Below, piece after piece: positions 2,533 through 59,889 of a DNA stretch of 64,000 nt (position 1 is its first letter; each line of letters begins with the position of its first letter). The stretch is from contig NC_134949.1 of NCBI RefSeq assembly GCF_965638725.1, forward strand, positions 81,622,017-81,686,016, given 5' to 3'. The position numbers and the translations under genes are program-made. Under the pieces are notes generated by a model. It made no database searches, was not told the DNA's origin, and saw only the letters and a list, made by a program, of their open reading frames with translations. The stretch comes from Aptenodytes patagonicus. Taxonomy: Eukaryota; Chordata; Aves; Sphenisciformes; Spheniscidae.

Positions 2533-2571
<39 letters not shown>

Positions 2572-21306: not shown

Positions 21307-21464
21307 GCAGTGTTTTTTCTTCCCCTTTTCCCCGACCCACAGAGAGCGTGAGAGCTTGTCTGTTTTGTGAAAAAGTAATGCTCGTGAGTCAGGGAGCGTA
21401 GCTCCAAAATGCAGAATGTCACTGCAAGGAAACAGACTGCAAGGACACATCAAAAATCAAGGCA

Positions 21465-21470
21465 TTTAAT
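21465..21470 (-). promoter_or_regulatory. Likely GPR19 polyadenylation signal (ATTAAA)
   Basis: On the - strand ATTAAA lies 127 bases past the GPR19 stop and is followed by T- and GT-rich sequence. The same site is kept at 30944-30949, 36196-36201, 43281-43286 and 56025-56030. No canonical AATAAA is nearer. Confidence 0.5.
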
Positions 21471-21597
21471 GAAACAAAACATCTTATTTTCTTCCCTAAA
21501 AGCTACGTTAAAATATGTAAATATGCAGTGGTTCAAAACGGAGCGAAAGCTCCTTGTTCTGGGGGTAGGTTGTAATTTCTCAAAGCACTGAAGCCAA

Positions 21598-22827
21598 CTA
21601 GACAAACGTATTTGGGGGATTGGACTGAGTAGGCCAGGCAAGCCTTTTTTCCTTTGCTTCTCTGTTAAAAGCCTCATAGATGGACTCTTTGGTGAGCGTT
21701 TTGGCCGGAGCTGTGATTTCTGCGATGCCAACGTGATTTCTTTTGGCTATCCTGGAACTGGTGGTGATGGTGTACGCGTTGCTCCTGTAGCCTTTCATGG
21801 CGGACATGCAGAAAGTTTCTTTCACCCCTCTTCTGAAGTTTGCGTTATAGACGGAGTAGAGGGTTGGCTTAGAGGCTGCAGAACTGAAAGAGATCCAGGT
21901 GATGGCCAGGAAAAGCAGGGAGCTCTTTCTGTAGTCTGTTTCCTGCGGGTGCCAGAGCTGCACCACGTGAAAAGGGAGCCAGGACAGGAGAAACACCGAG
22001 TTTGACATTAAGAACATCTTGATGGTTTTCACTTTTGTTCTTGGGACGATATTCACTGTCCTCCTGACGGTCCTGCCATCGGTGCCTGCTCTCCAAATGT
22101 GCTCGACGACCTTCTGGTAGAAGAGCATAATGAGGACGGATGGGACCAGAGCCACCACCAAGAGGTGGATGATTCCGTAGGCGGCTCCTTCCCGAGAATC
22201 GGGGAGAAAAAAGTTGCAGTGGTCGTCGCTGTTGGAGCCATAGAAAAAGAAAGCCGGTGATGCAAGTACAGCGTCAAATAGCCAAGAGGCCAGAATCATT
22301 TTCTTGGCTTTCTCCCGCGACACCTTGAAGCTCAGGGGGTAGACGATAGTGTAGAATCGATCCACGCATACAGAGAGGAGCACGTATATCTGGACGCCAG
22401 GGGTGAGGTACTGTATGTACCTTACCAGCTTGCACATCACGTTCCCCAGCGTCCACCTGCCGAAGGTCAACTGGAGCAGCACGAAGGGCGCGCTTGCGAC
22501 ACTGGCGAGGAGGTCTGCACAAGCCATGGAGACCACAAAATAGTTGGTGGTGGATTGCGTCCTCCTGCTCCTGTGGATCACTAAGCAAACGAGGGAGTTT
22601 CCAAAGACGGAAACCAGCCACAACGCTCCCCGAACCGTGCTGGCTGCTGCCATTTCCCCCGGCCTCAGCTCATAGTGCGAGCCAGTGTGGTTCCTGCTTG
22701 AGCTGGGTCCCAGGGGTGACCCCGCCACCTCGTAGCCGGCAGGAGGGATGGAGGTTTCGGGGTAGCTCTTGTTCTGCAGCAGGAGCAATAAGGTGGGGAG
22801 AACAAAAGGACCGCTGCTGTTATCCAT
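21598..22827 (-). CDS. GPR19: GPR19 copy 1, orphan class A GPCR, open
   Basis: The 409 codons match human GPR19 along their whole length and to the same C-terminus (Asn-Thr-Phe-Val). Seven membrane segments are visible at about residues 67-86, 95-115, 132-158, 175-196, 217-241, 267-292 and 302-331. Other marks are Asn77 (TM1), Asp105 (TM2), Cys132 and Cys204 (disulphide), Asp-Arg-Phe at 156-158 in place of DRY, SWLP at 282-285 in place of CWxP, and a TM7 without classical NPxxY. Asn3, Asn19 and Asn46 are glycosylation sequons. I chose the ATG at 22827 because the frame upstream has no earlier ATG (only GTG and then a stop), and A at -3 with G at +4 is favourable. A strong splice acceptor (ctcttctcccttcatgcag) lies 36 bases upstream, so a 5' UTR intron is likely. 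GPR19 is a neural G-protein-coupled receptor, proposed but not settled as an adropin receptor. Residue 275 in TM6 is Ser here, Leu in copies 3, 4 and 6. Confidence 0.95.
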   Translation of the reverse strand: MDNSSGPFVLPTLLLLLQNKSYPETSIPPAGYEVAGSPLGPSSSRNHTGSHYELRPGEMAAASTVRGALWLVSVFGNSLVCLVIHRSRRTQSTTNYFVVSMACADLLASVASAPFVLLQLTFGRWTLGNVMCKLVRYIQYLTPGVQIYVLLSVCVDRFYTIVYPLSFKVSREKAKKMILASWLFDAVLASPAFFFYGSNSDDHCNFFLPDSREGAAYGIIHLLVVALVPSVLIMLFYQKVVEHIWRAGTDGRTVRRTVNIVPRTKVKTIKMFLMSNSVFLLSWLPFHVVQLWHPQETDYRKSSLLFLAITWISFSSAASKPTLYSVYNANFRRGVKETFCMSAMKGYRSNAYTITTSSRIAKRNHVGIAEITAPAKTLTKESIYEAFNREAKEKRLAWPTQSNPPNTFV

Positions 22828-25329
22828 GCTGTGGGCAAACGTGGCCACGTCTTTTGCTCAGGCTGCATGAAGGGAGAAGAGAAAAGGTTCTATTTAACAA
22901 GCGCGTGTGAAAAACCTGCCTTGACCAGCGAAAGATAATTCTCGGTAGTATACGTACTACTTGAAGTGGCAGATTTCAGAGAAACGGTCAGAAATCTGCG
23001 GTGAGAGTAGCTGGTACAGCAGAGGCCGTTAAGCCTCATGCCGATTTTTATTACTGGCCTGACTATTTTAGGACAGGCATTTCTGTCCTCTGACAGACAA
23101 GTGTCCCTTTCACAGGTAGAGGCTGAGGTGCAGGTTCACCAGCGCTGGTGACCTGCAGGCTGGGTGAGCGCAATATGCCCCACTGATCCCAGACAGGAGC
23201 TGCACTTCCCGGTGTCCGTGGAAGTTGCAAAAAAGCAGACCAGCAGTGTCCCCGCTCACTTGGCTTGCCATGAATCCATCAAGTCGACAGGCAAAGGAGG
23301 TGTTTCTTACAGCGAGAGGTGGACTGGGAAGCAACATTTCCCACCATCCTAGCGTCTTCATTGATGAGGGCCCTAGCAGCCAAAGCCTGCTCCCAGCCAA
23401 TCGTTAGCAACATGGGTGTTAATAGCCCGAATACCCCTGAGCCTCCTTGTTTCTGGGCGTAATTTTGGAAGGTCAGCGAGGTCTGGATTGGGAGGCAAAG
23501 GAAAGGTCAGCACAGCGGAAGGGCTGGCACCGAGCTGGGGGGGCGCTCCTCCCCGTGAATCCTCCTCAGCCCTTCCACAGTGAGGAAATGTTCCTCAAGA
23601 GCTGGACGTTGCGTACCTTAAAGAGCCTGTCCTGAGCACCGACGCTGTCCCCGCATGTCCTTGCCTCCTTAGTCACCGGCCCCATCAAGGGCAGCGTTTC
23701 CCTCTGCCACCCGTCGAACAAGGTGGCACGACAAGCTCCCCCCCAAACCTGCAGAAGCGGCTTTTTTGCCAACGGCAGGGTCTTGATTGAGAAGGAAAAC
23801 TCTGGGGGAGGAGGTAAATGCCCTCACGCAGCTGAGATGTGGGGGGAGCCTTTTGCTTTCCGGCAGCGGAGCCTTGGGTGGGTGGTGTGGCTTGCACGGT
23901 CGCTAGATGCGACTGCAGTCAGCTGTTGAGGCTCTCTATGCTGTGGAGAAAAGCCCGGGAGAGGGTCGATGTCCTTACCTTGCTCAGGGACCTCCCAAGC
24001 AGCAAGTCTGACTCCTCCCAGCTCACCCTGTCGAGCCCGGCTGTGGAGCGCAGCCCGTCCTCCACCGACCTGCAGGACCCAAGGGGCAACTGAAGGGTTG
24101 CCCTGAGCAACTGACACCAACACACACCACGGAACCTCTGGCGCCAGCTGTGCCACGGGGAGGCCCTTGCTCAGCTCTGGGGAGGGACCCAGTGGCCTTG
24201 TCCTGGCCTTGGGATGTGCCGACTTTCTGAGCTCAGGAGTCCTCTGTTGACAGGACCTGGGGGTTTGCAGGGCTGCGGGGGTTGCCAGAGGAGTCCAGCC
24301 CCTGTTCTTTTTAAACGTGAATGGCTCGGCTTACAGTCCCCCCTGTCTCCTTTTGCCATTCAAGTAGGTCCCCTTCTTTGCTTGCCAGACCCTTGCAGTC
24401 CTTCCTCCCTCTTGCCAGCCCCTGTACAGAGGTTGCCTCGCCTGGGCACTGATAACCTAGCCTTCACGGCTCTGAGGCCGGGTAGCGAACGGCACCAAAT
24501 CGGAGGGCACGAGGCAAAAAAAGAGGTTGGAACTGGGTTTAAAGGGGGTTATGGCTCTGTTAGCTGCCCAACAGCTCACTGTTACAGATGGGTAGTGGCT
24601 GAACTGGGGGGCCCTCAGCGTTTACCTCTCTAAAGCCGCACCGAGCAGTCATCCAACGTGGACTCTCCTTGCTGAGCACCCCACCAGCCCGAATGCTAAC
24701 ACAGTCAGTAATCGGTCTACTTTTCAGGCGGTGTTTTTCACCTGCCGGGACGCTCGAGTGACCTCTCTGTTTCTGAGCAAGCACGGAAATACAGCTTCTG
24801 GGATGAAACTGTAGCTGGTCCTTTCTGGTAGTTATGGTACACACCACGGTACGTGATAGCCGTGACCTCCTGTTTTAAGGCTGAGTGAGACAAGAAGGGG
24901 TATATTGCTAGGCAGTTTCCAAGCTTCGGTTTGGCCAGCTGTTTGGGTTGGTCCTAGCGTATCACAGGGATAACATGGAAGAATACTTAATATTGGTGCC
25001 TATGCATTTACAAACTCCGTGCCGGGGTCTGGTGTTCCAAAAAGTGTCCTTCCAATCACTGTGTTGACACGCAAAGCCTGTTGCTCATTAGAACTATAAA
25101 GTCTGTTTGTGTGGGTATAATGTGTGAATGCTTAACTCCAGAGCCTTGATACTGTGCAAGATGAACCAGGATGGAATCAATGACCAGCAGATCAAAATGC
25201 TCGCCCCAGAATCCCGGTGGACAAGTTCAAAAAGCACCACCATCCTCCCCAGCTTTCAAAGTGATCGAAATTCCCAGCTTTGCTTATTGAGATGCTTTTT
25301 GCTCGGCCTACTCTAGCTCTGCATCTATC
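22828..25329 (-). repeat. Block A upstream region of GPR19 copy 1
   Basis: This is about 2.5 kb of GPR19 5' DNA, repeated nearly base for base in every copy. It contains the splice acceptor next to the gene, a 16-bp palindrome 309 bases upstream of the ATG, and near its far end one member of a 51-bp direct repeat (24753-24803, about 90% identical to 25339-25389 in the spacer). Small open frames on both strands recur in all units only because the DNA is duplicated. A non-coding GPR19 exon is expected here or beyond, but I could not place its donor site. Confidence 0.7.
23136..23151. promoter_or_regulatory. 16-bp perfect palindrome upstream of GPR19
   Basis: TCACCAGCGCTGGTGA is self-complementary, and the symmetry continues imperfectly to 27 bases with one base missing. 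It is present in all six units (also 27363, 32615, 37867, 44952 and 57696), always 309 bases from the ATG. The binding factor is unknown. Confidence 0.5.
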
Positions 25330-26326
25330 TCTGTCTATCTCGAGTGACCTCTCTATTTCTGAGCAAGCACTGACGTACAGCTCCTGGGACCTAACAGTGT
25401 TGTGACCTCATCCTCGCGACAGGAGTAGACGTGCATCCCCGCTGGAGCAAGCCAAATTTGCCTGCAGAGTAAAGGCTTCCAGCCGGTGGACCCAAGGGAT
25501 GCATGCCCGCAAGGCACAGGTGCCTCCCGCCTTGTTCAGCTGGGCTGTGGGGCTGGCCCAGCTGCCCTATCAGCCGAACACCTCCCACCACCCTCCCCTG
25601 CCCCGCAGCCTCGCGCCCCGTGCCGGCGGAGCCGAAGGCCAGCCTCTGCAGGGCCCGCGTGTGGGTGCCCCTGTCCCCCACGCACAGGCGCCAGTGCCCG
25701 CTTCTCACGAGCACGTCACCGTCATGGGGCGCAGGGGGGTGCAGAGGAGCCCCTGCCTCTCCCCGCTGTTCCCCGGCCGGCACAGCCGGTGCCGTTCCCC
25801 TTCCCACCAGGACCGAAGCCCCGGCCGGTCCCGTTGGGTTGTTTTCTCACTGCGCTGGCAGAGGAATAGCAGCAGGAGCCGGCTCCACCTGCAGCCACAG
25901 CTCCCTGCCAGCTTGTCTCCTCTGGGACGCCGGTTAGGGACCTATTAACACATGCACCCGCGGAGGATGCCGTCAGGCGAGCGTGTGACTGCAGAGCTGG
26001 TTTTCCTGCTCCCGTTTGGGAAAACCCGCTATTTGCTGCAGGTGCCAGAGCCGTACCTCAGAAGGAGGGACTGCGGCCAGGAGACACACGAAATTTAAGA
26101 CGTGAGGAGTCCCCGGGTGCCTGGTAGGGCCGTGGCCCCACCAGGATCAGCAGGTCCTCTCCCAGGCGGTGCCCACCCCTGGCTTCTGGGTGTGTGCAGC
26201 AGGCTGGGTGGAGAAGCAGCTGGAGAGGAGGCGGGGAGGCCAAGAGCGAGGGGAGGACTTTTCTCAGGCGGTTTGGACCACGGGACCTCTGGAGAGGCGC
26301 AGCGACGAAGATGCAAAAGCATTCAG
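25330..26326. repeat. Spacer B1, truncated at its right end
   Basis: This is GC- and CpG-rich spacer DNA between copies 1 and 2. It is cut at 26326, where it joins GPR19 coding sequence directly. The last 233 bases of a full spacer, including the palindromic CRE, are missing. Long overlapping open frames in several phases (about 125-150 codons) reflect the low density of stop codons in GC-rich DNA; none resembles a known protein. It may work as a CpG-rich regulatory region for the gene copy to its left. Confidence 0.75.
25339..25389 (+). repeat. 51-bp direct repeat member at the A/B junction
   Basis: It matches 24753-24803 with five mismatches. It begins nine bases after the block A end (25329), the point at which copy 6 diverges into unique sequence. 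A pair of this kind is present in each unit. Confidence 0.8.
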
Positions 26327-27054
26327 TGCTCGACGACCTTCTGGTAGAAGAGCATAATGAGGACGGATGGGACCAGAGCCACCACCAAGAGGTGGATGAT
26401 TCCGTAGGCGGCTCCTTCCCGAGAATCGGGGAGAAAAAAGTTGCAGTGGTCGTCGCTGTTGGAGCCATAGAAAAAGAAAGCCGGTGATGCAAGTACAGCG
26501 TCAAATAGCCAAGAGGCCAGAATCATTTTCTTGGCTTTCTCCCGCGACACCTTGAAGCTCAGGGGGTAGACGATAGTGTAGAATCGATCCACGCATACAG
26601 AGAGGAGCACGTATATCTGGACGCCAGGGGTGAGGTACTGTATGTACCTTACCAGCTTGCACATCACGTTCCCCAGCGTCCACCTGCCGAAGGTCAACTG
26701 GAGCAGCACGAAGGGCGCGCTTGCGACACTGGCGAGGAGGTCTGCACAAGCCATGGAGACCACAAAATAGTTGGTGGTGGATTGCGTCCTCCTGCTCCTG
26801 TGGATCACTAAGCAAACGAGGGAGTTTCCAAAGACGGAAACCAGCCACAACGCTCCCCGAACCGTGCTGGCTGCTGCCATTTCCCCCGGCCTCAGCTCAT
26901 AGTGCGAGCCAGTGTGGTTCCTGCTTGAGCTGGGTCCCAGGGGTGACCCCGCCACCTCGTAGCCGGCAGGAGGGATGGAGGTTTCGGGGTAGCTCTTGTT
27001 CTGCAGCAGGAGCAATAAGGTGGGGAGAACAAAAGGACCGCTGCTGTTATCCAT
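26323..27054 (-). pseudogene. GPR19: GPR19 copy 2, truncated after TM5
   Basis: The frame is identical to copy 1 from the ATG to residue 243 (Val-Glu-His at the start of the third intracellular loop). It then meets a TGA supplied by the spacer sequence. The cause is a 1,025-bp deletion that joins spacer B (to 26326) to the gene and removes TM6, TM7, the C-tail, the gene's own polyadenylation site and the end of the spacer. At most 1 bp of homology is shared at the junction. The upstream region and splice acceptor are intact, so the copy could still be transcribed and could make a five-helix protein. Such a product would lack the helices needed for G-protein activation, so I class it as a pseudogene of the host. 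Confidence 0.9.
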
Positions 27055-29556
27055 GCTGTGGGCAAACGTGGCCACGTCTTTTGCTCAGGCTGCATGAAGG
27101 GAGAAGAGAAAAGGTTCTATTTAACAAGCGCGTGTGAAAAACCTGCCTTGACCAGCGAAAGATAATTCTCGGTAGTATACGTACTACTTGAAGTGGCAGA
27201 TTTCAGAGAAACGGTCAGAAATCTGCGGTGAGAGTAGCTGGTACAGCAGAGGCCGTTAAGCCTCATGCCGATTTTTATTACTGGCCTGACTATTTTAGGA
27301 CAGGCATTTCTGTCCTCTGACAGACAAGTGTCCCTTTCACAGGTAGAGGCTGAGGTGCAGGTTCACCAGCGCTGGTGACCTGCAGGCTGGGTGAGCGCAA
27401 TATGCCCCACTGATCCCAGACAGGAGCTGCACTTCCCGGTGTCCGTGGAAGTTGCAAAAAAGCAGACCAGCAGTGTCCCCGCTCACTTGGCTTGCCATGA
27501 ATCCATCAAGTCGACAGGCAAAGGAGGTGTTTCTTACAGCGAGAGGTGGACTGGGAAGCAACATTTCCCACCATCCTAGCGTCTTCATTGATGAGGGCCC
27601 TAGCAGCCAAAGCCTGCTCCCAGCCAATCGTTAGCAACATGGGTGTTAATAGCCCGAATACCCCTGAGCCTCCTTGTTTCTGGGCGTAATTTTGGAAGGT
27701 CAGCGAGGTCTGGATTGGGAGGCAAAGGAAAGGTCAGCACAGCGGAAGGGCTGGCACCGAGCTGGGGGGGCGCTCCTCCCCGTGAATCCTCCTCAGCCCT
27801 TCCACAGTGAGGAAATGTTCCTCAAGAGCTGGACGTTGCGTACCTTAAAGAGCCTGTCCTGAGCACCGACGCTGTCCCCGCATGTCCTTGCCTCCTTAGT
27901 CACCGGCCCCATCAAGGGCAGCGTTTCCCTCTGCCACCCGTCGAACAAGGTGGCACGACAAGCTCCCCCCCAAACCTGCAGAAGCGGCTTTTTTGCCAAC
28001 GGCAGGGTCTTGATTGAGAAGGAAAACTCTGGGGGAGGAGGTAAATGCCCTCACGCAGCTGAGATGTGGGGGGAGCCTTTTGCTTTCCGGCAGCGGAGCC
28101 TTGGGTGGGTGGTGTGGCTTGCACGGTCGCTAGATGCGACTGCAGTCAGCTGTTGAGGCTCTCTATGCTGTGGAGAAAAGCCCGGGAGAGGGTCGATGTC
28201 CTTACCTTGCTCAGGGACCTCCCAAGCAGCAAGTCTGACTCCTCCCAGCTCACCCTGTCGAGCCCGGCTGTGGAGCGCAGCCCGTCCTCCACCGACCTGC
28301 AGGACCCAAGGGGCAACTGAAGGGTTGCCCTGAGCAACTGACACCAACACACACCACGGAACCTCTGGCGCCAGCTGTGCCACGGGGAGGCCCTTGCTCA
28401 GCTCTGGGGAGGGACCCAGTGGCCTTGTCCTGGCCTTGGGATGTGCCGACTTTCTGAGCTCAGGAGTCCTCTGTTGACAGGACCTGGGGGTTTGCAGGGC
28501 TGCGGGGGTTGCCAGAGGAGTCCAGCCCCTGTTCTTTTTAAACGTGAATGGCTCGGCTTACAGTCCCCCCTGTCTCCTTTTGCCATTCAAGTAGGTCCCC
28601 TTCTTTGCTTGCCAGACCCTTGCAGTCCTTCCTCCCTCTTGCCAGCCCCTGTACAGAGGTTGCCTCGCCTGGGCACTGATAACCTAGCCTTCACGGCTCT
28701 GAGGCCGGGTAGCGAACGGCACCAAATCGGAGGGCACGAGGCAAAAAAAGAGGTTGGAACTGGGTTTAAAGGGGGTTATGGCTCTGTTAGCTGCCCAACA
28801 GCTCACTGTTACAGATGGGTAGTGGCTGAACTGGGGGGCCCTCAGCGTTTACCTCTCTAAAGCCGCACCGAGCAGTCATCCAACGTGGACTCTCCTTGCT
28901 GAGCACCCCACCAGCCCGAATGCTAACACAGTCAGTAATCGGTCTACTTTTCAGGCGGTGTTTTTCACCTGCCGGGACGCTCGAGTGACCTCTCTGTTTC
29001 TGAGCAAGCACGGAAATACAGCTTCTGGGATGAAACTGTAGCTGGTCCTTTCTGGTAGTTATGGTACACACCACGGTACGTGATAGCCGTGACCTCCTGT
29101 TTTAAGGCTGAGTGAGACAAGAAGGGGTATATTGCTAGGCAGTTTCCAAGCTTCGGTTTGGCCAGCTGTTTGGGTTGGTCCTAGCGTATCACAGGGATAA
29201 CATGGAAGAATACTTAATATTGGTGCCTATGCATTTACAAACTCCGTGCCGGGGTCTGGTGTTCCAAAAAGTGTCCTTCCAATCACTGTGTTGACACGCA
29301 AAGCCTGTTGCTCATTAGAACTATAAAGTCTGTTTGTGTGGGTATAATGTGTGAATGCTTAACTCCAGAGCCTTGATACTGTGCAAGATGAACCAGGATG
29401 GAATCAATGACCAGCAGATCAAAATGCTCGCCCCAGAATCCCGGTGGACAAGTTCAAAAAGCACCACCATCCTCCCCAGCTTTCAAAGTGATCGAAATTC
29501 CCAGCTTTGCTTATTGAGATGCTTTTTGCTCGGCCTACTCTAGCTCTGCATCTATC
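27055..29556 (-). repeat. Block A upstream region of copy 2
   Basis: It is nearly identical to the upstream block of copy 1. It shares with copy 1 three variants that differ from copies 3-6 (a T at the 'gcatgtcc' site near 27881, GTCG near 27939, and TTGG near 28101), which pairs copies 1 and 2 as closest relatives in this stretch. Confidence 0.85.
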
Positions 29557-30785
29557 TCTGTCTATCTCGAGTGACCTCTCTATTTCTGAGCAAGCACTGA
29601 CGTACAGCTCCTGGGACCTAACAGTGTTGTGACCTCATCCTCGCGACAGGAGTAGACGTGCATCCCCGCTGGAGCAAGCCAAATTTGCCTGCAGAGTAAA
29701 GGCTTCCAGCCGGTGGACCCAAGGGATGCATGCCCGCAAGGCACAGGTGCCTCCCGCCTTGTTCAGCTGGGCTGTGGGGCTGGCCCAGCTGCCCTATCAG
29801 CCGAACACCTCCCACCACCCTCCCCTGCCCCGCAGCCTCGCGCCCCGTGCCGGCGGAGCCGAAGGCCAGCCTCTGCAGGGCCCGCGTGTGGGTGCCCCTG
29901 TCCCCCACGCACAGGCGCCAGTGCCCGCTTCTCACGAGCACGTCACCGTCATGGGGCGCAGGGGGGTGCAGAGGAGCCCCTGCCTCTCCCCGCTGTTCCC
30001 CGGCCGGCACAGCCGGTGCCGTTCCCCTTCCCACCAGGACCGAAGCCCCGGCCGGTCCCGTTGGGTTGTTTTCTCACTGCGCTGGCAGAGGAATAGCAGC
30101 AGGAGCCGGCTCCACCTGCAGCCACAGCTCCCTGCCAGCTTGTCTCCTCTGGGACGCCGGTTAGGGACCTATTAACACATGCACCCGCGGAGGATGCCGT
30201 CAGGCGAGCGTGTGACTGCAGAGCTGGTTTTCCTGCTCCCGTTTGGGAAAACCCGCTATTTGCTGCAGGTGCCAGAGCCGTACCTCAGAAGGAGGGACTG
30301 CGGCCAGGAGACACACGAAATTTAAGACGTGAGGAGTCCCCGGGTGCCTGGTAGGGCCGTGGCCCCACCAGGATCAGCAGGTCCTCTCCCAGGCGGTGCC
30401 CACCCCTGGCTTCTGGGTGTGTGCAGCAGGCTGGGTGGAGAAGCAGCTGGAGAGGAGGCGGGGAGGCCAAGAGCGAGGGGAGGACTTTTCTCAGGCGGTT
30501 TGGACCACGGGACCTCTGGAGAGGCGCAGCGACGAAGATGCAAAAGCATTCAGCGCTGGCCTGATGCTGACCCTCCCGGGGCAGTGGGAATTTTAGCACT
30601 GACGTCAGTGGGCTCAGAGTGATGCCAGCGCTGCCCACGCCTGGACGTCTTACCCGTGGGGTCTGAACAAGAAGGAAAACCCCAGGGCAAAAGGATTCCG
30701 AGGGATAGAACGAAAGGAAGCGTAGATGGCTTTGGGTGGACTTATGCATTTATACATGGTGGCCAATGTAGAGGGATTAAAACAG
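29557..30785. repeat. Spacer B2, full length (1,229 bp)
   Basis: This is a complete spacer with a CpG-rich core (about 29770-30180), followed by a mixed segment that carries the palindromic CRE. The right end leads into the GPR19 3' flank of copy 3. No gene is recognised. Confidence 0.85.
30597..30610. promoter_or_regulatory. Palindromic cAMP-response element (spacer B2)
   Basis: CACTGACGTCAGTG is a perfect 14-bp palindrome centred on the full CRE octamer TGACGTCA, the consensus site of CREB/ATF dimers. It lies about 470 bases past the stop of GPR19 copy 3 and 3.5 kb upstream of the truncated copy 2. Confidence 0.6.
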
Positions 30786-31076
30786 GCAGTGTTTTTTCTT
30801 CCCCTTTTCCCCGACCCACAGAGAGCGTGAGAGCTTGTCTGTCTTGTGAAAAAGTAATGCTCGTGAGTCAGGGAGCGTAGCTCCAAAATGCAGAATGTCA
30901 CTGCAAGGAAACAGACTGCAAGGACACATCAAAAATCAAGGCATTTAATGAAACAAAACATCTTATTTTCTTCCCTAAAAGCTACGTTAAAATATGTAAA
31001 TATGCAGTGGTTCAAAACGGAGCGAAAGCTCCTTGTTCTGGGGGTAGGTTGTAATTTCTCAAAGCACTGAAGCCAA

Positions 31077-36037: not shown

Positions 36038-36328
36038 GCAGTGTTTTTTCTTCCCCTTTTCCCCGACCCACAGAGAGCGTGAGAGCTTGTCTGTCTTGTG
36101 AAAAAGTAATGCTCGTGAGTCAGGGAGCGTAGCTCCAAAATGCAGAATGTCACTGCAAGGAAACAGACTGCAAGGACACATCAAAAATCAAGGCATTTAA
36201 TGAAACAAAACATCTTATTTTCTTCCCTAAAAGCTACGTTAAAATATGTAAATATGCAGTGGTTCAAAACGGAGCGAAAGCTCCTTGTTCTGGGGGTAGG
36301 TTGTAATTTCTCAAAGCACTGAAGCCAA

Positions 36329-43122: not shown

Positions 43123-43413
43123 GCAGTGTTTTTTCTTCCCCTTTTCCCCGACCCACAGAGAGCGTGAGAGCTTGTCTGTCTTGTGAAAAAGTAATGCTCG
43201 TGAGTCAGGGAGCGTAGCTCCAAAATGCAGAATGTCACTGCAAGGAAACAGACTGCAAGGACACATCAAAAATCAAGGCATTTAATGAAACAAAACATCT
43301 TATTTTCTTCCCTAAAAGCTACGTTAAAATATGTAAATATGCAGTGGTTCAAAACGGAGCGAAAGCTCCTTGTTCTGGGGGTAGGTTGTAATTTCTCAAA
43401 GCACTGAAGCCAA

Positions 43414-47939: not shown

Positions 47940-48508
47940 TGTGGTGGAGGCTCATGGAATCAAATTAGGCCGGTGATAGTTTCAAAAATAAACTTTATTT
48001 TGACCAAAATTGTTTATGAGAAAACTAACTAGATATGAGGCATCAGCAGTCCGACAACATCAGTAAACCACATGTCCAGGATGGTGTACGAGGGAATAAT
48101 TCTGCACAGCTGGCTTTAGAAATGAGGATCCAAAATGTACACAGTCACTCACCTGTGAGATGAGGGCTCTTAACCTCAAGCACTTTCCTTGGGAGGTGTC
48201 CCAACCCTAGGGGTGCGTCCCCGACTGCAGGCCCGCTGCTCCGAGGAGGACTGGCTCAACTTGCCCTTTGGCGGGGCTCCATTTATACCCTAGTCGAAGC
48301 TGACCTGTGGTCACTTTCTAATTGGCTGAGGGCCTTGACTTGCTTATTCCTCGCCCGAGGTGTATACATGACCATCATGACTGGCCCAAGGTGTGTACGT
48401 GATGGTCAGCACTTGCCACCTTAAAGGCACAAAATTAAGGGTGCGAAAAGTAAGGACGCAGCGGTCTTAATGCCCCCAGTCCTTGTCAGGGCGCGTGCAC
48501 CTGCCAGA
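47940..48508 (-). repeat. 3' LTR of the retroviral fossil
   Basis: 569 bp, about 98% identical to the LTR at 54862-55430. It is the nearer LTR to GPR19 copy 5 and points towards it. Confidence 0.92.
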
Positions 48509-51500
48509 AAATCCATCGTGACCATAGACACGATTCGACTGGTTTCCTTGGAGCAGTGGTACAGTCTCCTCTTACCTCCAAAGTTAAAAGGGTGTGCAGT
48601 CTTGGTGACTTCGGTGCTCACTGTGAATCATCATTTCTCAGTTGTTTAAGGTCGTACTGGAACATCAGTTATAGGAACAGATTTTGATGGAGCATACTCC
48701 ATGGTTAATACAGTTTGTTATTGTGTGCTTAACACAATCTATAACGATACAAATCACAACAATCACAACTACAGCCATTATCAGAGACTGGCAAAGATGA
48801 TTGGTTAGCCATCCTGACAAAGAAAACCCAAACATATCGAAAATTTTCCCCAACCAATTAGTCCCTAGTGCAGCAACAATTGCTTCTGATTCATTTGCTA
48901 CTTTTTTCATTTTGTTGATCTGGTCTTGAAGGTGTACTGAGACATTTGGGATGTGGACACAGCACTCATCTTCTGATAGGCTCAGGACTCCACATACACC
49001 TTTCTCCTTTAACAGCATCAGATCTAATACGGCTCAGTTTTGAACAGTCATTCTACTGGTATGTTGTAGTTGATTATCTAATAGCCCCAAACTATCAGAC
49101 GTGGCGGTGGCCAAGGCTGACAGCTGCAGGCCCAGTTCCAGAATAGCCTGCTGGTTCTGTACCGCAGCAACTCCCATCCCAAAATTGATTCCAGCCACCA
49201 TCCTACTCATGTGGAGGATTCCTGCCATTCCCCCCGCAAGTCCCTTGGGCTGCAATCCCACCACTTATGTGGCATGGATCCTTCCCGATAAATGGGACAG
49301 AGAGAGAACACGGCTAATGTGCAGGCTAGTCCCTGGATGGTTGGGTATAATTGGGAATATAAGCGGCCGTCAGAACATGCCCACACTAAGTTAGGAGCTG
49401 CAGGGACAAAGGATGTTTGGCATGAACCTGGCATGGTAGTAAGGGGATGACAGTAATCTTTCTTAAAACAATCTAGGGCAAAGGGCCGTAAGTAACCGGT
49501 ATTGCTACATAGGCAGCCCTGCATTAAAGCGTCCTGAGCAGGAGGATATAGCAATAAGAGTGGCATTTCATCTATGTCTTTACACCCGATCTCTGCCTGA
49601 CAGTTCCAGAGTGGAGATTTCCCTACCTGGAATACCTTATCTTTTTCCCCGTACCAGCTGAGTGTATCTAGCCCACGTGCAGCTGAGGGGGCAGTCCCAC
49701 GAATTTCGATTACACACACTGGGACATTCATTATTATCCTTTTCAGGGTGTTTGATGCACCATGAGGCATTTAATGGTTTTGTATATTGTAGGGAGAGGT
49801 CATCAGTGCTCCAGCAAGCACTATATTCGGTAGCTCCCCATGGAATTTCAGGGCATGGTGTAGTGCCATTCCAGCTCCACCCCATGGCCTCATGGGTAGG
49901 TTGAAGAATATAGTCACATCTGGCATCCCATACCAAACTAGCATTTACCTTGCCCAGCAACCAGCTGTAGACAATGTAAGTATAGCCTCTTCCCTCAATC
50001 TCCCTAAATCTCCAACTATAATTAGTATATTGCTCCCATGTGAGCTCGAGGGCTAGTGATATGTTAATGTCCTGCACAAAAATTGGTGAAAGGTCTTCTG
50101 CTGACTTGGGTGTGGGCAGGCAAACCGTTACTATCGTTCGGGCAAATCCTACTATCATTTTTACTACCATATTGCTGTCAAGGTCCTGGTTGTTTCCGCT
50201 GGTCACTGTCACCATTGCCAGTATGAGCACCAAAGCAGTCCACTTTTCCATTGTCCTGTAAGAAAACACAGAGCTGGGCCTTGGGCTTGAAACTGGGCTT
50301 CAGGGTTAGAAGTCAGGGATTATCCACCAAGCACTAATACGGTGGGTTTTTCCACTCCTGTCCAGAGCTTCCCAGGCATATAGGCCTCTGGGTTTTGCCA
50401 GGGTCATGGGTACAATGCCAATAGAGGGTAGCTTCACCATTACAGTTTGGCCCACGTACATCCATAGTGGGAACTGGTCCTTTGTATCGCTCAGTGTAGG
50501 GTCATCGCCCATCAGTGGTCTCGTAGGGCAAAACGCTCGAATTTTGGGGTTTCCATAGCTTCCCCAGCAGCTGTGAGCAATAAAGACTGCCTGTGGTAAT
50601 CATATGTCCCAGTTGTGGCATGAGACATCAGCATGATCAGCATGATCAACCAATCAAACCACTGGTTCATTCGACTATACCGTTAGCTGGAGGATAATAT
50701 GGTGTATGGAACACCCATTTGATGTCTTCCCCTCGAGCGCAGTCTTGCACCACTGCGGCCATAAAATGTGACCCATTATCACTTTGAATGCACGCGGGGG
50801 TGGGTAAAATACTAAACCACTTTCTTAACGCTTGGACCGTCTGATCTCCGGTGGCGGTGCTAACAGCTGTAGCCATGGTCAGTCCTGACACCACCTCTAC
50901 TCCTACCAAGATATATTTCTTCCCATGGGATGGCCACAAAGGACCAATATAATTGATTTGCCAGGTGCTCCAAAGAGCCTTGCCTTGTTCGATATGCTGG
51001 GCTGGAGCTTGATTTGGATGGTTGGCCTTAAGCCTTATCTGACATTGTGGGCAAGCCGTAAGGACTGCTTCACATATTCTCATGGACACTGGCCATCCCC
51101 GGGACCGACACTCGTAATAGAGGTCTGCTTTCTCCGAGTGGCCTCACTTAATGTGCAGCCACTCAGCCAACAGTCCCCAATCTTCCTTTTCGCTACCTAC
51201 TACCTTAATTTGGGCTAGGTGATCTACCTGTTGATTCCATTTTGCAGCAGAAGTCCCATTTCTTGCATGGCCTTTTAACCACCCGACCTTTAGGGGTCGT
51301 GATCTGCCTATTTCTAACAATCGCTGCCAGTCTCCAGCTCTCCAGACTTTTGTACGGCCTGCTTCCCACTGACTGGATTCCCATTGGCATATCCTATGTG
51401 GCACCCTTATAGGTTGCGTAGGAATCAGTGTAAATTATGGCAGCGCCATTGCTGCCAGCAGGAGGGCATGCAACTCCCATACGTGTGCGCTACCTCCCCC

Positions 51501-54500
51501 CTCCTCTGTAATCATTTTCCCCATACCAATTTCCAATGCCGCTGCTTTATATTGCCACCTGGATGCCACTCGGCGGGCAGATGCATCTGTGAACCACACT
51601 CATTGTGTACCTGAGCCTGTGGTCAGTTCGTGCACCTCTTTGACCGGGGAAGGTTTATAGGGTTGTCCCAGCAAAACCGGATCTGGATTCACAGGTTGTT
51701 GGAGCTTAGAGGCTTTGATCGGGCCCTCTCTTAATGACAGTAACTGACTAACTCCCTCTAGATAGGCATACCACTTCTGTATCGTGGCCTTCTGGGCCAC
51801 TCCCTCAGGAGGGGGTGATCCCTTGAGGATCAAATTTAGCAGAGGAAAAGGGCCTTGTACTATAATGTCTTGTGAAGTATGTAACCTCTCTGCCTTCTTA
51901 ACTGCCCTGGTAAGTGAGAGGAGTCCCTTTTCCCACACTGAGTACCATTGTTCAGCTTCCTTGAATGAGGTAGAAGAGAATAATAAAGGTCTAGCTGGCC
52001 CCCTCAGTTCCTTTTGGAATATACCACAATAGGAGGCATGTTCTGTGAACCCCCATTCTACCCTCAGCGGGTCTCATGAGTGTAGTGGGCCTAGCCTCTG
52101 ATAGGTCTTAAGTTCATCCTTCAGGACATTAAGGGCCTCTGTGTCATGGATTCTAATCCCATTCCTTAATTCTTTCGGAGCAAGTCACATAAAGGGCGAG
52201 CAATCACCGAAAACCCCAGTATATATTTTCTCCAACAGCCCATTACACCTAATAACTGCTGTAATTCTGTCTTATTGCCTGGAGTTCGCCCTTTCTCAAT
52301 AGCTGATAGAGTGTCACTGGGCACCGCAACTGCTCCAGCTATCCACCAAGCTCCTAGGAATTTAATTTCTTCTCCAGGACCTTGACATTTGGAAGGCAGA
52401 ATGTCTAGCCTGTTTTTAGTCAACTGGTTCCAGTTGGCTTCGGCTACTTGCCTTACCTGTTCTTTATTATCTCCACCAACTAGGATGTCGTGTATGTACT
52501 GATGTATGTGGACGCCTGACGGCACCTCCACTGTGTCAAGGAGTTTGGCCAAGGCATTGTGAGCAATAGTGGGGGAGTGTTTGCCCAAGTAAAGGCAAAG
52601 TGAGGCTTATCCTCTTCTCTTAATGGAATAATGAAAAACATGTCCTTGACATCCAGGGTGGCCATCCACGGGGTGGGCGGCTGCCTGTATTCCTGTTACT
52701 ACTGAGGTTAGACTCGGGACGGCAGCCATTAGCTGCGGGGTATTATTGTTTAATCTTCAGTAGTCAATCGTTAGGTGCCACTGCCCATCTGGCTTACGAA
52801 CTGGCCAGACTGGAGAATTATAGGGGGAGTGTGTGCGACTTACGATCTGTCTCTTCTCGAGGTCGCTAATTACCTCTGAAATGCCCTGTTTAGCTGCGGT
52901 TGGTAGCAGATATTGAGAAATGCAGGTTACTTTAGATTGCGGTAGTGCGGGAGCAAGCTGCAGGGTCCTAACATGGACAGCTTCTGCTCCTCTGCCTCCA
53001 AAACTCCACACCTTGCCGTTAGGTAAATACCACTGCTTGCCCGCTAATCCATCAAATCCCAATATATTTCCCTTATAAGGGCTTAGAGCCACCTCCACTG
53101 CTGTCATCCGCTTTTCTCCAGGTAGCCAAAGTTGAGTCCGAGCTATGGGACATTTTTCTGCTGCACCCGTCACCGCTATTATGTTTATAGTCTTTCTCGA
53201 TGGTTTAATTCCTAACTCATCGGCTTGTTGCTTATTTAGAACAGTAATTTGGGCCCCTGTATCAATTAAGAACTCTAAACTTAGTCGCTTCGGACCCACG
53301 TGGATCTGTATGTAAGGTTCCTTGTCAGCGGACCATTGGCAGGAATTCACCATGCGGAGTGGGCGGCCCGAACCCCAAACTGCGTCTTCTAGTTTTTTAA
53401 CTCATCCAGTTCCCCTCACAGGGACGCGAAAAGGTTAATTGTGTCTGTGCTGTTGTGAGGGAGGGTGGTTGCCCTTGTTTTCCCTTGATCTTTGGTTTTC
53501 CCCTCGAGCAATTCCACCAGTTTCTGGATGTGGTCGGTGGGCTGCCTGTGCAGCATCGCCCGGGGTACTCCCAGCGCTAATGCTTTTTGCCAAAGGTCGT
53601 TCCCTCCCAGATCGTGGGCTCAATCCGGTCTATCTCGGGAAGGTGCGGGCTCCATGTGGGGAGGCCATCTGGGGTGGGGGTTTTGGCTGGCTTGTTGAAC
53701 CCTCCTATTCCCGTCCGTGCCACTGCCTGGATCAGTCCATCCCATCTCACACCCGTCAGTGACTACATCGTGTAACATCTCCGCCCAGGTCAGCACATGT
53801 GCGGGCGGATTCTGAGGGTTTTGCTGATTGTGTTCTATGGTCCTCTGGATCCTTTCTCCAAGAGACTGAACACGTATTTTTAAGGCGTCCGGTAGCCCTC
53901 TAATGAGAGGTCTAAGGTGGCTGGTGTCCACCGGTGCAGCCATTGGTACCCTTTGCCGCCCCCTCTCATACATTGCCTGGATACAAGCAGCCTTTGGTAC
54001 TCCTTCCGCTAACTCCAACAGTCCTTTTACTCGGATGGCAACAGGCTCCCCTCGCTCTTTGGGGTCCACACCCCCAGCCCAATAAGCCACTCGGGACGTG
54101 ATCGACTGGTTGCCTGCTGGCCCCTCACCCAGAAACACTCTGGGGCCCCAAAATCCCCTAGCCTCGTCCTCACTCAACAGTATCCGATATCCGCCCCCCC
54201 GTTAAAGAGACACGCCACAGATACGCAGTTTCCATTTCTCCTGGTCTATGCGAAAACCTGGCTTGTAATTCACTGAGCTCAGGTCCCGTCCAGGGGGAGG
54301 TACAGACAGTGGTTTGGGGGTTCCTGCCCCACGGACCCGTATGCCTCTCTGTTTTAATAAGAGGTCGCACTGCTTTTCCCTCCAATTCCTCTGTTTCCTC
54401 AGACTATTTTCCTCAGGGTCTCCCCAGATGTCCCCATCCCAATCCTCAGGATCTGCGCCCACAATTACTTTTCGGATTTGGACAACACTGGGGGGTCTTT

Positions 54501-54861
54501 TCGCTTGTGCTAGCATGAGCTCCATTTTTTGTTCTAACAGATGCGTCCGCTCTCTTTCTCTTTCCAATTCTCCTTTTAAACAATGGGTTTCTAACTGCTT
54601 CTTTAAATTGCTCTGTTCTAATATTCCGGAATAATTGTAATGATCTCGCGCTTGAATTACACAGGCATCTAGGACGGCACACATGGTCCCTTCACCTTTA
54701 CCGTTTCGATTATTCCCGTGGCATTGTTCTAATCTCTCTGCGACTGCTGCTGGGTCGAACCACTTCTCCTTCGCCCATTTTATACCTGGGGAGAAGGGCT
54801 ACATCTGTGCCTCCGTAATAAGTACACTACTGAAACCATCCAGCCGACTATGCCAATTTAA

Positions 54862-55430
54862 TGTCACGGAGGCTCATGTAATCAAATTAAGCCGGTGATA
54901 GATTCAAAAATAAACTTTATTTTGACCAAAATTGTTTATGAGAAAACTAACTAGAAATGAGGCATCAGCAGTCTGACAACATCAGTAAACCACATGTCTA
55001 GGATGGTGTACGAGGGAATAATTCTGCACAGCTGGCTTTAGAAATGAGGATCCAAAATGTACACAGTCACTCACCTGTGAGATGAGGGCTCTTAACCTCA
55101 AGCACTTTCCTTGGGAGGTGTCCCAACCCTAGGGGTGCGTCCCCGACTGCAGGCCCGCTGCTCCGAGGAGGACTGGCTCAACTTGCCCTTTGGCGGGGCT
55201 CCATTTATACCCTAGTCGAAGCTGACCTGTGGTCACTTTCTAATTGGCTGAGGGCCTTGACTTGCTTATTCCTCGCCCGAGGTGTATACATGACCATCAT
55301 GACTGGCCCAAGGTGTGTACGTGACGGTCAGCACTTGCCACCTTAAAGGCACAAAATTAAGGGTGCGAAAAGTAAGGACGCAGCGGTCTTAATGCCCCCA
55401 GTCCTTGTCAGGGTGCGTGCACCTGCCACA
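54862..55430 (-). repeat. 5' LTR of the retroviral fossil
   Basis: 569 bp, the right-hand LTR. It is followed by GTCTG (55431-55435) and then by the spacer exactly at the point where the left side stopped. Confidence 0.92.
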
Positions 55431-55870
55431 GTCTGGTAGGGCCGTGGCCCCACCAGGATCAGCAGGTCCTCTCCCAGGCGGTGCCCACCCCTGGCTTCTG
55501 GGTGTGTGCAGCAGGCTGGGTGGAGAAGCAGCTGGAGAGGAGGCGGGGAGGCCAAGAGCGAGGGGAGGACTTTTCTCAGGCGGTTTGGACCACGGGACCT
55601 CTGGAGAGGCGCAGCGACGAAGATGCAAAAGCATTCAGCGCTGGCCTGATGCTGACCCTCCCGGGGCAGTGGGAATTTTAGCACTGACGTCAGTGGGCTC
55701 AGAGTGATGCCAGCGCTGCCCACGCCTGGACGTCTTACCCGTGGGGTCTGAACAAGAAGGAAAACCCCAGGGCAAAAGGATTCCGAGGGATAGAACGAAA
55801 GGAAGCGTAGATGGCTTTGGGTGGACTTATGCATTTATACATGGTGGCCAATGTAGAGGGATTAAAACAG
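55431..55870. repeat. Spacer B5, right part
   Basis: This is the remaining spacer sequence after the retroviral insertion, leading into the 3' flank of copy 6. It matches the spacers of the homogenised array and not the old left flank at 21230. Confidence 0.9.
55682..55695. promoter_or_regulatory. Palindromic cAMP-response element (spacer B5)
   Basis: It has the same CACTGACGTCAGTG palindrome, about 460 bases past the stop of GPR19 copy 6. Confidence 0.6.
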
Positions 55871-56157
55871 GCAGTGTTTTTTCTTCCCCTTTTCCCCGAC
55901 CCACAGAGAGCGTGAGAGCTTGTCTGTTTTGTGAAAAAGTAATGCTCGTGAGTCAGGGAGCGTAGCTCCAAAATGCAGAATGTCACTGCAAGGAAACAGA
56001 CTGGACACATCAAAAATCAAGGCATTTAATAAAATAAAACATCTTATTTTCTTCCCTAAAAGCTACATTAAAATATGTAAATATGCAGTGGTTCAAAACG
56101 GAGCGAAAGCTCCTTGTTCTGGGGGTAGGTTGTAATTTCTCAAAGCACTGAAGCCAA

Positions 56158-57387
56158 CTAGACAAACGTATTTGGGGGATTGGACTGAATAGGCCAGGCA
56201 AGCCTTTTTTCCTTTGCTTCTCTGTTAAAAGCCTCATAGATGGACTCTTTGGTGACCGTTTTGGCCGGAGCTGTGATTTCTGCAATGCCAACGTGATTTT
56301 TTTTGGCTATCCTGGAACTGGTGGTGATGGTGTACGCGTTGCTCCTGTAGCATTTCATGGCGGACATGCAGAAAGTTTCTTTCATCCCTCTTCTGAAGTT
56401 TGCGTTATAGACGGAGTAGAGGGTTGGCTTAGAGGCTGCAGAACTGAAAGAGATCCAGGTGATGGCCAGGAAAAGCAGGGAGCTCTTTCTGTAGTCTGTT
56501 TCCTGCGGGTGCCAGAGCTGCACCACGTGAAAAGGGAGCCAGGACAGGAGAAACACCGAGTTTAACATTAAGAACATCTTGATGGTTTTCACTTTTGTTC
56601 TTGGGACGATATTCATTGTCCTCCTGACGGTCCTGCCATCGGTGCCTATTCTCCAAATGTACTTGATGACCTTCTGGTAGAAGAGCATAATGAGGACGGA
56701 TGGGACCAGAACCACCACCAAGAGGTGGATGATTCCGTAGGCGGCTCCTTCCCAAGAATCGGGGAGAAAAAAGTTGCAGTGGTCGTCGCTGTTGGAGCCA
56801 TAGAAAAAGAAAGCCGGTGATGCAAGTACAGCGTCAAATAGCCAAGAGGCCAGAATCATTTTCTTGGCTTTCTCCCGCGACACCTTGAAGCTCAGGGGGT
56901 AGACGATAGTGTAGAATCGATCCACGCATATAGAGAGGAGCACGTATATCTGGACGCCAGGGGTGAGGTACTGTATGTACCTTACCAGCTTGCACATCAC
57001 GTTCCCCAGCGTCCACCTGCCGAAGGTCAACTGGAGCAGCACGAAGGGCGCGCTTGCGACACTGGCGAGGAGGTCTGCACAAGCCATGGAGACCACAAAA
57101 TAGTTGGTGGTGGATTGCGTCCTCCTGCTCCTGTGGATCACTAAGCAAACGAGGGAGTTTCCAAAGACGGAAACCAGCCACAGTGCTCCCCAAACTGTGC
57201 TGGCTGCTGCCATTTCCCCCGGCCTCAGCTCATAGTGCGAGCCAGTGTGGTTCCTGCTTGAGCTGGGTCCCAGGGGTGACCCCGCCACCTCGTAGCCGGC
57301 AGGAGGGATGGAGGTTTCAGGGTAGCTCTTGTTCTGCAGCAGGAGCAATAAGGTGGGGAGAACAAAAGGACCGCTGCTGTTATCCAT
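56158..57387 (-). CDS. GPR19: GPR19 copy 6, the ancestral-like gene, open
   Basis: The 409-codon frame is the most human-like of the six. It has Ile-Lys-Tyr at 241-243 and Ile247 (array: Val-Glu-His and Ala), Met in RRTMNIV, Met in GMKETF, Cys346 in MKCYRSN (array Gly), Lys in AKKN, Trp in SWEG and Ile in WPIQ. Human GPR19, as I recall it, has the copy 6 residue at about 11 of the 14 differing sites. Cys346 would give the C-tail a second cysteine for possible palmitoylation. I count 20 base differences from copy 3 within the coding region, about 15 of which change an amino acid. The ATG at 57387, acceptor and polyadenylation motif match the other copies. This is the best candidate for the original, constrained gene, and the only one with unique upstream DNA. 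Confidence 0.96.
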   Translation of the reverse strand: MDNSSGPFVLPTLLLLLQNKSYPETSIPPAGYEVAGSPLGPSSSRNHTGSHYELRPGEMAAASTVWGALWLVSVFGNSLVCLVIHRSRRTQSTTNYFVVSMACADLLASVASAPFVLLQLTFGRWTLGNVMCKLVRYIQYLTPGVQIYVLLSICVDRFYTIVYPLSFKVSREKAKKMILASWLFDAVLASPAFFFYGSNSDDHCNFFLPDSWEGAAYGIIHLLVVVLVPSVLIMLFYQKVIKYIWRIGTDGRTVRRTMNIVPRTKVKTIKMFLMLNSVFLLSWLPFHVVQLWHPQETDYRKSSLLFLAITWISFSSAASKPTLYSVYNANFRRGMKETFCMSAMKCYRSNAYTITTSSRIAKKNHVGIAEITAPAKTVTKESIYEAFNREAKEKRLAWPIQSNPPNTFV

Positions 57388-59889
57388 GCTGTGGGCAAAC
57401 GTGGCCACGTCTTTTGCTCAGGCTGCATGAAGGGAGAAGAGAAAAGGTTCTATTTAACAAGCGCGTGTGAAAAACCTGCCTTGACCAGCGAAAGATAATT
57501 CTCGGTAGTATACGTACTACTTGAAGTGGCAGATTTCAGAGAAACGGTCAGAAATCTGCGGTGAGAGTAGCTGGTACAGCAGAGGCCGTTAAGCCTCATG
57601 CCGATTTTTATTACTGGCCTGACTATTTTAGGACAGGCATTTCTGTCCTCTGACAGACAAGTGTCCCTTTCACAGGTAGAGGCTGAGGTGCAGGTTCACC
57701 AGCGCTGGTGACCTGCAGGCTGGGTGAGCGCAATATGCCCCACTGATCCCAGACAGGAGCTGCACTTCCCGGTGTCCGTGGAAGTTGCAAAAAAGCAGAC
57801 CAGCAGTGTCCCCGCTCACTTGGCTTGCCATGAATCCATCAAGTCGACAGGCAAAGGAGGTGTTTCTTACAGCGAGAGGTGGGCTGGGAAGCAACATTTC
57901 CCACCATCCTAGCGTCTTCATTGATGAGGGCCCTAGCAGCCAAAGCCTGCTCCCAGCCAATCGTTAGCAACATGGGTGTTAATAGCCCGAATACCCCTGA
58001 GCCTCCTTGTTTCTGGGCGTAATTTTGGAAGGTCAGCGAGGTCTGGATTGGGAGGCAAAGGAAAGGTCAGCACAGCGGAAGGGCTGGCACCGAGCTGGGG
58101 GGGCGCTCCTCCCCGTGAATCCTCCTCAGCCCTTCCACAGTGAGGAAATGTTCCTCAAGAGCTGGACGTTGCGTACCTTAAAGAGCCTGTCCTGAGCACC
58201 GACGCTGTCCCCGCACGTCCTTGCCTCCTTAGTCACCGGCCCCATCAAGGGCAGCGTTTCCCTCTGCCACCCGGCGAACAAGGTGGCACGACAAGCTCCC
58301 CCCCAAACCTGCAGAAGCGGCTTTTTTGCCAACGGCAGGGTCTTGATTGAGAAGGAAAACTCTGGGGGAGGAGGTAAATGTCCTCACGCAGCTGAGATGT
58401 GGGGGGAGCCTTTTGCTTTCCGGCAGCGGAGCCTCGGGTGGGTGGTGTGGCTTGCACGGTCGCTAGATGCGACTGCAGTCAGCTGTTGAGGCTCTCTATG
58501 CTGTGGAGAAAAGCCCGGGAGAGGGTCGATGTCCTTACCTTGCTCAGGGACCTCCCAAGCAGCAAGTCTGACTCCTCCCAGCTCACCCTGTCGAGCCCGG
58601 CTGTGGAGCGCAGCCCGTCCTCCACCGACCTGCAGGACCCAAGGGGCAACTGAAGGGTTGCCCTGAGCAACTGACACCAACACACACCACGGAACCTCTG
58701 GCGCCAGCTGTGCCACGGGGAGGCCCTTGCTCAGCTCTGGGGAGGGACCCAGTGGCCTTGTCCTGGCCTTGGGATGTGCCGACTTTCTGAGCTCAGGAGT
58801 CCTCTGTTGACAGGACCTGGGGGTTTGCAGGGCTGCGGGGGTTGCCAGAGGAGTCCAGCCCCTGTTCTTTTTAAACGTGAATGGCTCGGCTTACAGTCCC
58901 CCCTGTCTCCTTTTGCCATTCAAGTAGGTCCCCTTCTTTGCTTGCCAGACCCTTGCAGTCCTTCCTCCCTCTTGCCAGCCCCTGTACAGAGGTTGCCTCG
59001 CCTGGGCACTGATAACCTAGCCTTCACGGCTCTGAGGCCGGGTAGCGAACGGCACCAAATCGGAGGGCACGAGGCAAAAAAAGAGGTTGGAACTGGGTTT
59101 AAAGGGGGTTATGGCTCTGTTAGCTGCCCAACAGCTCACTGTTACAGATGGGTAGTGGCTGAACTGGGGGGCCCTCAGCGTTTACCTCTCTAAAGCCGCA
59201 CCGAGCAGTCATCCAACGTGGACTCTCCTTGCTGAGCACCCCACCAGCCCGAATGCTAACACAGTCAGTAATCGGTCTACTTTTCAGGCGGTGTTTTTCA
59301 CCTGCCGGGACGCTCGAGTGACCTCTCTGTTTCTGAGCAAGCACTGAAATACAGCTTCTGGGATGAAACTGTAGCTGGTCCTTTCTGGTAGTTATGGTAC
59401 ACACCACGGTACGTGATAGCCGTGACCTCCTGTTTTAAGGCTGAGTGAGACAAGAAGGGGTATATTGCTAGGCAGTTTCCAAGCTTCGGTTTGGCCAGCT
59501 GTTTGGGTTGGTCCTAGCGTATCACAGGGATAACATGGAAGAATACTTAATATTGGTGCCTATGCATTTACAAACTCCGTGCCGGGGTCTGGTGTTCCAA
59601 AAAGTGTCCTTCCAATCACTGTGTTGACACGCAAAGCCTGTTGCTCATTAGAACTATAAAGTCTGTTTGTGTGGGTATAATGTGTGAATGCTTAACTCCA
59701 GAGCCTTGATACTGTGCAAGATGAACCAGGATGGAATCAATGACCAGCAGATCAAAATGCTCGCCCCAGAATCCCGGTGGACAAGTTCAAAAAGCACCAC
59801 CATCCTCCCCAGCTTTCAAAGTGATCGAAATTCCCAGCTTTGCTTATTGAGATGCTTTTTGCTCGGCCTACTCTAGCTCTGCATCTATC
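57388..59889 (-). repeat. Block A upstream region of copy 6, last of the array
   Basis: It is nearly identical to the other upstream blocks even though the coding region beside it has diverged, so homogenisation has reached this part. It ends at 59889, after which the sequence is unique and no spacer follows. The palindrome is at 57696. Confidence 0.88.

Follow-up and report, generated by a model that had tools for sequence, protein, structure and literature searches.

GPR19 is an orphan class A receptor that is usually present as one copy. It has a reported circadian role in mouse (PMC8599615), adropin has been proposed as its ligand (PMC9653598) and the gene has been lost in a hadal snailfish (PMC10746142). 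Here we describe a 64,000-nucleotide stretch of the Aptenodytes patagonicus genome (assembly GCF_965638725.1, contig NC_134949.1, positions 81,622,017 to 81,686,016 of the forward strand; hereafter the window), in which the coding exon of GPR19 is found six times in tandem. The locus resembles GPR19 elsewhere in that CREBL2 adjoins it and one copy, copy 6, is close to human and bird GPR19; it differs in having six copies rather than the usual one, and in that, compared with copy 6, copies 1–5 are changed in 14 codons. No publication title on a bird GPR19 array was found in the open-licence literature, which is weak evidence of absence.

Two described systems are useful for comparison. GC-biased substitution hotspots have been described in genes (PMC2631073). 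They are similar in that clustered A/T-to-G/C changes alter conserved protein and adaptation is not needed to account for them. The penguin locus differs in that the changes are among tandem paralogues, and an unaffected copy in the array serves as a built-in reference. Mammalian tandem gene arrays (PMC10463633) share expansion of a family in cis, a base-composition bias and tolerated nonsynonymous variation. However, those arrays are A/T-rich with low recombination, whereas the penguin array is rich in G/C and shows signs that its copies have exchanged sequence.

Based on the analyses below, the array has probably been homogenized by GC-biased gene conversion. Copy 6 would be the preserved GPR19, and copies 1–5 would be drifting. 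In this scenario, the GPR19 locus would have grown to six tandem units that were kept alike by repeated unequal exchange and by gene conversion favoring G/C. The ancestor of copies 1–5, freed from constraint, would have accumulated A/T-to-G/C changes, amino-acid changes included, and biased conversion would have spread these across the inner units. Copy 6, located where the array ends on its 5' side and unique upstream DNA begins, would have retained the ancestral residues.

Structure of the GPR19 array

The six GPR19 coding exons are arranged head to tail on the minus strand at 21307–59889, in a unit of 5,252 bp. Self-comparison of the window identified blocks within the array that were 98.7–99.98% identical, with an offset of 5,252 bp between full units. 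In addition, a 27-bp marker of the unit start was present five times (at 21307, 30786, 36038, 43123 and 55871) versus a chance expectation of 0.00; copy 2 is without the part of the unit start that carries it. These two lines of evidence agreed, and confirmed the tandem head-to-tail array with a 5,252-bp period reported in the first-pass annotation. The copies and their open reading frames (ORFs) are as follows.

21307–26330, minus strand: copy 1, unit 1–5024 (self-comparison, unit alignment)
21598–22848, minus strand: GPR19 frame of copy 1, 409 amino acids (ORF)
26326–30785, minus strand: copy 2, unit 793–5252, after a deletion of ~1,025 bp; upstream block kept, gene truncated
26323–27075, minus strand: truncated GPR19 frame of copy 2, 243 amino acids from the first ATG (ORF)
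30786–36037, minus strand: copy 3, a complete 5,252-bp unit
31077–32327, minus strand: GPR19 frame of copy 3 (ORF)
36038–43122, minus strand: copy 4, unit split by a CR1-like fragment
36329–37579, minus strand: GPR19 frame of copy 4, with private changes T97M and A115V (ORF)
43123–55870, minus strand: copy 5, unit split by a long terminal repeat (LTR) element
43414–44664, minus strand: GPR19 frame of copy 5 (ORF)
55871–59889, minus strand: copy 6, ending at unit ~4023, where unique DNA adjoins
56158–57408, minus strand: GPR19 frame of copy 6, with more conserved residues (ORF, homologue comparison)

The 1,251-bp frames of copies 1, 3, 4, 5 and 6 are open and each encodes 409 amino acids from the first ATG, which is codon 8 of the listed frames, as these start with GTG. 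The frame of copy 2 stops early because of its deletion, which spans unit ~5025 to ~796. The earlier count of five open copies and one truncated copy was therefore correct. Its explanation of all departures from the period by one deletion, one CR1, one retroviral insert and two tiny gaps (2 bp in copy 4 and 4 bp in copy 6) also held, with the addition of a few extra bases where the two elements inserted (2 at one and 3 at the other). The splice-acceptor-like sequence directly before the GPR19 frame is identical in all six copies. The upstream ATG that opens some other birds' GPR19 models is absent from all six, and the predicted start is codon 8. A search for upstream GPR19 exons with N-terminal stretches of the models of seven other species gave clear matches that all fell within the coding exon or immediately in front of it.

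Of the open copies, only 1 (to unit 5024) and 3 have an upstream block free of interruptions. The block of copy 4 has the CR1-like fragment inside it at unit ~3532, that of copy 5 has the LTR element at unit ~4817, and that of copy 6 ends at unit ~4023, where the unique DNA starts. Hence the suggestion that the gene had been amplified with complete upstream blocks was not upheld, as half of the six copies (4, 5 and 6) have blocks that are interrupted or cut. The unit has a G+C content of 55.6% and the flanks 42%, and CpG depletion is far weaker within the array (21307–59889) than in the flanks.

The high similarity of some units raises the question of whether the assembler over-expanded the array. 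Copies 1 and 2 differ by 1 substitution in 4,232 aligned bases and copy 3 has no private substitution, both of which would fit such an artefact. However, there is at least one substitution between every pair of copies, and several copies carry marks of their own: the deletion in copy 2, the CR1-like fragment and four single changes in copy 4, the LTR element and three changes in copy 5, and 24 changes and the truncation in copy 6. Furthermore, no flank block of at least 150 bp is duplicated in the window. We consider over-expansion very unlikely; at most, some of the inner copies could be false.

Copy 6 and the inner copies

Copy 6 has 24 private sites in addition to its 4-bp gap: 3 in unit 1–291, on the 3' flank of the coding exon, 20 in the coding exon and 1 in unit 1543–4023. 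Their distribution is highly uneven, with 23 in unit 1–1453 and 1 in the following ~2,570 bp (p = 1e-9). Copy 6 is a mosaic, with the switch between unit 1453 and 2017. At 21 of the 24 sites copy 6 has A/T and the other copies G/C, with 2 sites in the reverse direction and 1 in neither (sign test, p = 7e-5).

Comparison of the coding exons of copy 6 and copies 1–5 identified 14 codons with a total of 15 nonsynonymous changes, and 5 synonymous changes; the truncated copy 2 extends over the first part only. The 15:5 ratio is indistinguishable from neutral (p = 0.79), although 20 changes give this comparison little power, and the nonsynonymous and synonymous divergences between copies 6 and 3 are nearly equal (dN 0.016, dS 0.017). 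There is, then, no detectable constraint on the protein in these changes.

Homologous proteins were used to determine on which side the amino-acid changes arose. For the residue counts and the tree, 79 of 120 listed matches were used, with one representative per 90% cluster. At each of the 14 codons, the residue of copies 1–5 is in the minority or absent among the 79 homologues. Copy 6 has the majority residue at 12 of the codons and an intermediate one at codon 73 (W, found in 12 of the 79, including Fregata) and codon 233 (V, versus F in 76 of 79). The near-invariant residues W219 (79/79), I160 (78/79) and I407 (55/55 of those with a residue there) are kept in copy 6 and lost in copies 1, 3, 4 and 5. 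The homologues place the changes on the side of copies 1–5. Since its protein is more conserved and unique DNA adjoins its upstream side, we think that copy 6 is the working gene and, judging from its sequence, it is most likely the one with the ordinary job; copies 1–5 would be drifting or weakly functional.

In all five open copies, the changes I66M, S324A, D388E and K402R are present at conserved positions, and for S324A and K402R the consensus share at the column rounds to 1.00. Either the lineage changed at these positions before the split between copies 1–5 and copy 6, or conversion spread the changes.

The identity of the locus was supported by domain and homology searches. The 7tm_1 domain (PF00001) was identified in the three copies scanned, with E-values of 6e-45 for copy 6, 1.5e-44 for copy 3 and 9.4e-34 for the truncated copy 2. 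The top three relatives of the copy 6 protein are of bird GPR19 type (the third is unnamed) at 89–90% identity over nearly the full length, and identity to bird GPR19 is up to 91%; with the copy 4 protein as the query, the top relatives were at 86–87%. The named proteins among the 120 listed of 505 matches were all GPR19, except one whose first name is "hypothetical protein". A quick tree with the 79 homologues placed the five open copies in one clade (Shimodaira–Hasegawa-like approximate likelihood ratio test, SH-aLRT, 99), with Fregata as the nearest row (SH-aLRT 93). Copy 6 is 76.6% identical to a hand-typed human GPR19 sequence.

Base bias and signs of exchange between copies

The amino-acid changes common to copies 1–5 comprise 14 A/T-to-G/C changes, none in the reverse direction and 1 neutral. 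In contrast, the changes found in single copies among copies 1–5, presumably the youngest, are all G/C to A/T (8/8). The difference between the shared amino-acid changes (14:0) and the single-copy changes (0:8) is significant (Fisher's exact test, p = 3e-6), and is the trace that GC-biased gene conversion would be expected to leave.

Several observations are consistent with exchange between copies. Four site pairs violate the four-gamete condition, and L282S is common to copies 1 and 5, which are not neighbors; together these suggested that sequence has passed between units. The two LTRs of the element in copy 5 have 8 differences in 561 positions, versus 3 in 2,570 between copies 5 and 6, which flank the insert, upstream of the coding exon (p = 1e-4). 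Copies 3 and 5 have 4 differences in 3,799. Because the LTRs differ more than the copies flanking them, homogenization probably continued after the LTR insertion, if the rates of change are similar. A measure of G/C drift at the amino-acid level across the 79 homologues set copies 1–5 apart at a 90% threshold (7–8 to 0–1; the next best was 4 to 0), and separated them weakly at thresholds of 80% and 95%.

The main alternative is that copies 1–5 represent a selected second type of receptor, with an altered G-protein contact (K249E, Y250H and I254A, inner end of helix 5) and a higher dosage, and that copy 6 keeps the old role. Four full frames are still open, and 5 of the 14 changed codons are at 248–265, at or just past the inner end of the predicted fifth helix (219–256). 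Codons 248–254 are placed at that inner end by a fold model of low confidence (mean predicted local distance difference test, pLDDT, 59), which gives rough helix positions only. The strongest point for expression of copies 1–5 is a CpG-rich block at unit 4301–4800 of the full unit, profiled in copy 3 (some shorter windows in other parts of the unit qualify as well), that copy 6, cut off at unit ~4023, does not have. A single 200-bp window of the CpG-rich type is present in the right flank, at 60208. However, the 15:5 ratio fits an absence of selection and shows no excess of nonsynonymous changes, near-invariant residues (W219, I160 and I407) have been lost, and selection for function need not give nonsynonymous changes of which 14 of 15 are A/T to G/C. 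Based on these considerations, a selected second receptor is unlikely. The proposal in the first-pass annotation that amplification would change dosage or allow specialization was unsupported as claimed, given the shared changes at 14 codons, the neutral-like ratio and the interrupted or cut upstream blocks of half of the copies. Even so, copies 1–5 may have gained in dosage or become specialized.

A second alternative depends in part on the left edge of the array, where a short diverged segment was identified.

21236–21304, no strand assigned: diverged left edge, homologous to unit 5182–5249 (local alignment)

The alignment of this segment to the unit end has 15 mismatches and one gap in 69 columns, and its score of 35 compares with a maximum of 16 from 30 shuffles. 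At 9 of the mismatches the flank has A/T and the unit G/C, 2 are the reverse and 4 are neither. The left limit of the array had been set at 21307; the marker does start there, but homology continues beyond it. The segment is either the remnant of a very old first duplication, its edge spared from homogenization, or the product of recombination between two old repeats. A similar search of the right flank for diverged sequence continuing copy 6 gave best scores of 17 and 18 (over ~50 columns), located away from the junction, versus maxima of 15 and 16 from 30 simple shuffles, and no homology was counted.

A diverged edge of this kind fits an old first duplication, and the mosaic copy 6, with its switch between unit 1453 and 2017, would also be expected if copy 6 and the ancestor of copies 1–5 parted long ago and diverged in the ordinary manner, the inner unit was amplified recently and one crossover homogenized the upstream part of copy 6, all without biased conversion. 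Such a history should have given amino-acid changes private to copy 6 as well, and there are 0 of these versus 15 nucleotide changes in 14 codons on the other side (p = 6e-5; 1e-4 by codons). The ordinary bias would also be expected to be towards A/T, as it is in the single-copy changes, and not towards G/C. We therefore regard an old duplication with ordinary divergence as quite improbable.

There are, nevertheless, a number of points that weigh against homogenization by GC-biased conversion. The G+C contrast between unit and flanks could be older than the array. Polarity was taken from protein homologues, so that 9 of the 24 private sites of copy 6 (5 synonymous, 4 noncoding) are unpolarized; copy 6 has A/T at 7 of these 9. 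Only 3 of the 8 single-copy changes fall where copy 6 is comparable. Some residues of copies 1–5 are found in homologues too (V248 in 14/79, H250 in 8, R370 in 2, V160 in 1 and V265 in 1), and codon 342 is the weakest, as its V is also present in 4 of the 79, the nearest row, Fregata, among them. All of the four-gamete violations involve sites 58, 2515 or 3479, and recurrent mutation could explain some of them; the LTRs may mutate faster than the unit. An excess of A/T-to-G/C-type changes is present elsewhere in GPR19 (9:1 in P0014 and 12:4 in P0031, versus 12–13 to 1–2 in copies 1–5, at the 80% threshold), and P0014 ranks above the copies among 56 rows in its share of G/C-coded residues. Finally, copies 1, 3, 4 and 5 are free of stops and frameshifts.

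A stronger form of the conversion model is that biased conversion overran purifying selection on a neural receptor and drove G/C-coded residues into the inner copies at almost invariant sites, with one edge copy sheltered from this and still the gene. We offer this tentatively, as a possibility somewhat short of probable.

Inserted elements and neighboring genes

The insertions that split copies 4 and 5 are of two kinds.

39571–41403, plus strand: retrotransposon fragment with a ATGATTCT tail, 1,833 bp, splitting copy 4 (Pfam RVT_1, E 1.9e-36; tail repeat)
~47940–55432 (outer ends approximate), minus strand: endogenous retrovirus-like LTR element, 7,492 bp, splitting copy 5 (self-comparison, Pfam)

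The retrotransposon fragment, which we take to be CR1, has an open reverse-transcriptase frame of 553 amino acids (39656–41317, plus strand); it looks fairly young, because of this open frame and its ATGATTCT repeat end. The LTRs of the second element are at 47946–48506 and 54868–55428. A retroviral protease match was identified at 52757–53353, in one of the five frames scanned in this element, and the other four were without a Pfam match. Judged by eye, the element is bordered by a 5-bp site duplication whose two copies differ at one position. Frames of 154 and 163 amino acids upstream and a frame of 184 amino acids in the left flank had no Pfam match at E 0.001 and were taken as chance.

Two exons of CREBL2 were identified in the left flank, on the 3' side of the array.

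3023–3235, plus strand: CREBL2 exon, 93% over 71 amino acids to human (tblastn, E 2e-39; hand-typed human protein)
4346–4489, plus strand: later CREBL2 exon, 85% over 48 amino acids (tblastn, E 5e-24; hand-typed human protein)

CREBL2 and CDKN1B are the neighbors of GPR19 in the human map. No CDKN1B match was identified in the 4.1 kb of right flank in the window; the best tblastn match had an E-value of 1.7 and lay inside the units. On the sequence evidence, the locus is bird GPR19, tandemly amplified beside CREBL2.

Implications

The presence of six GPR19 copies at one locus was unexpected. Because the array has altered copies of a receptor next to a conserved one, it offers a way to measure what biased conversion costs a protein, and the changed residues are positions at which receptor function could be tested. 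Counting the genes in the array may overstate the dosage of GPR19. If biased conversion did overrun purifying selection, it would be position at the edge of an array that determines which paralogue remains the working gene.

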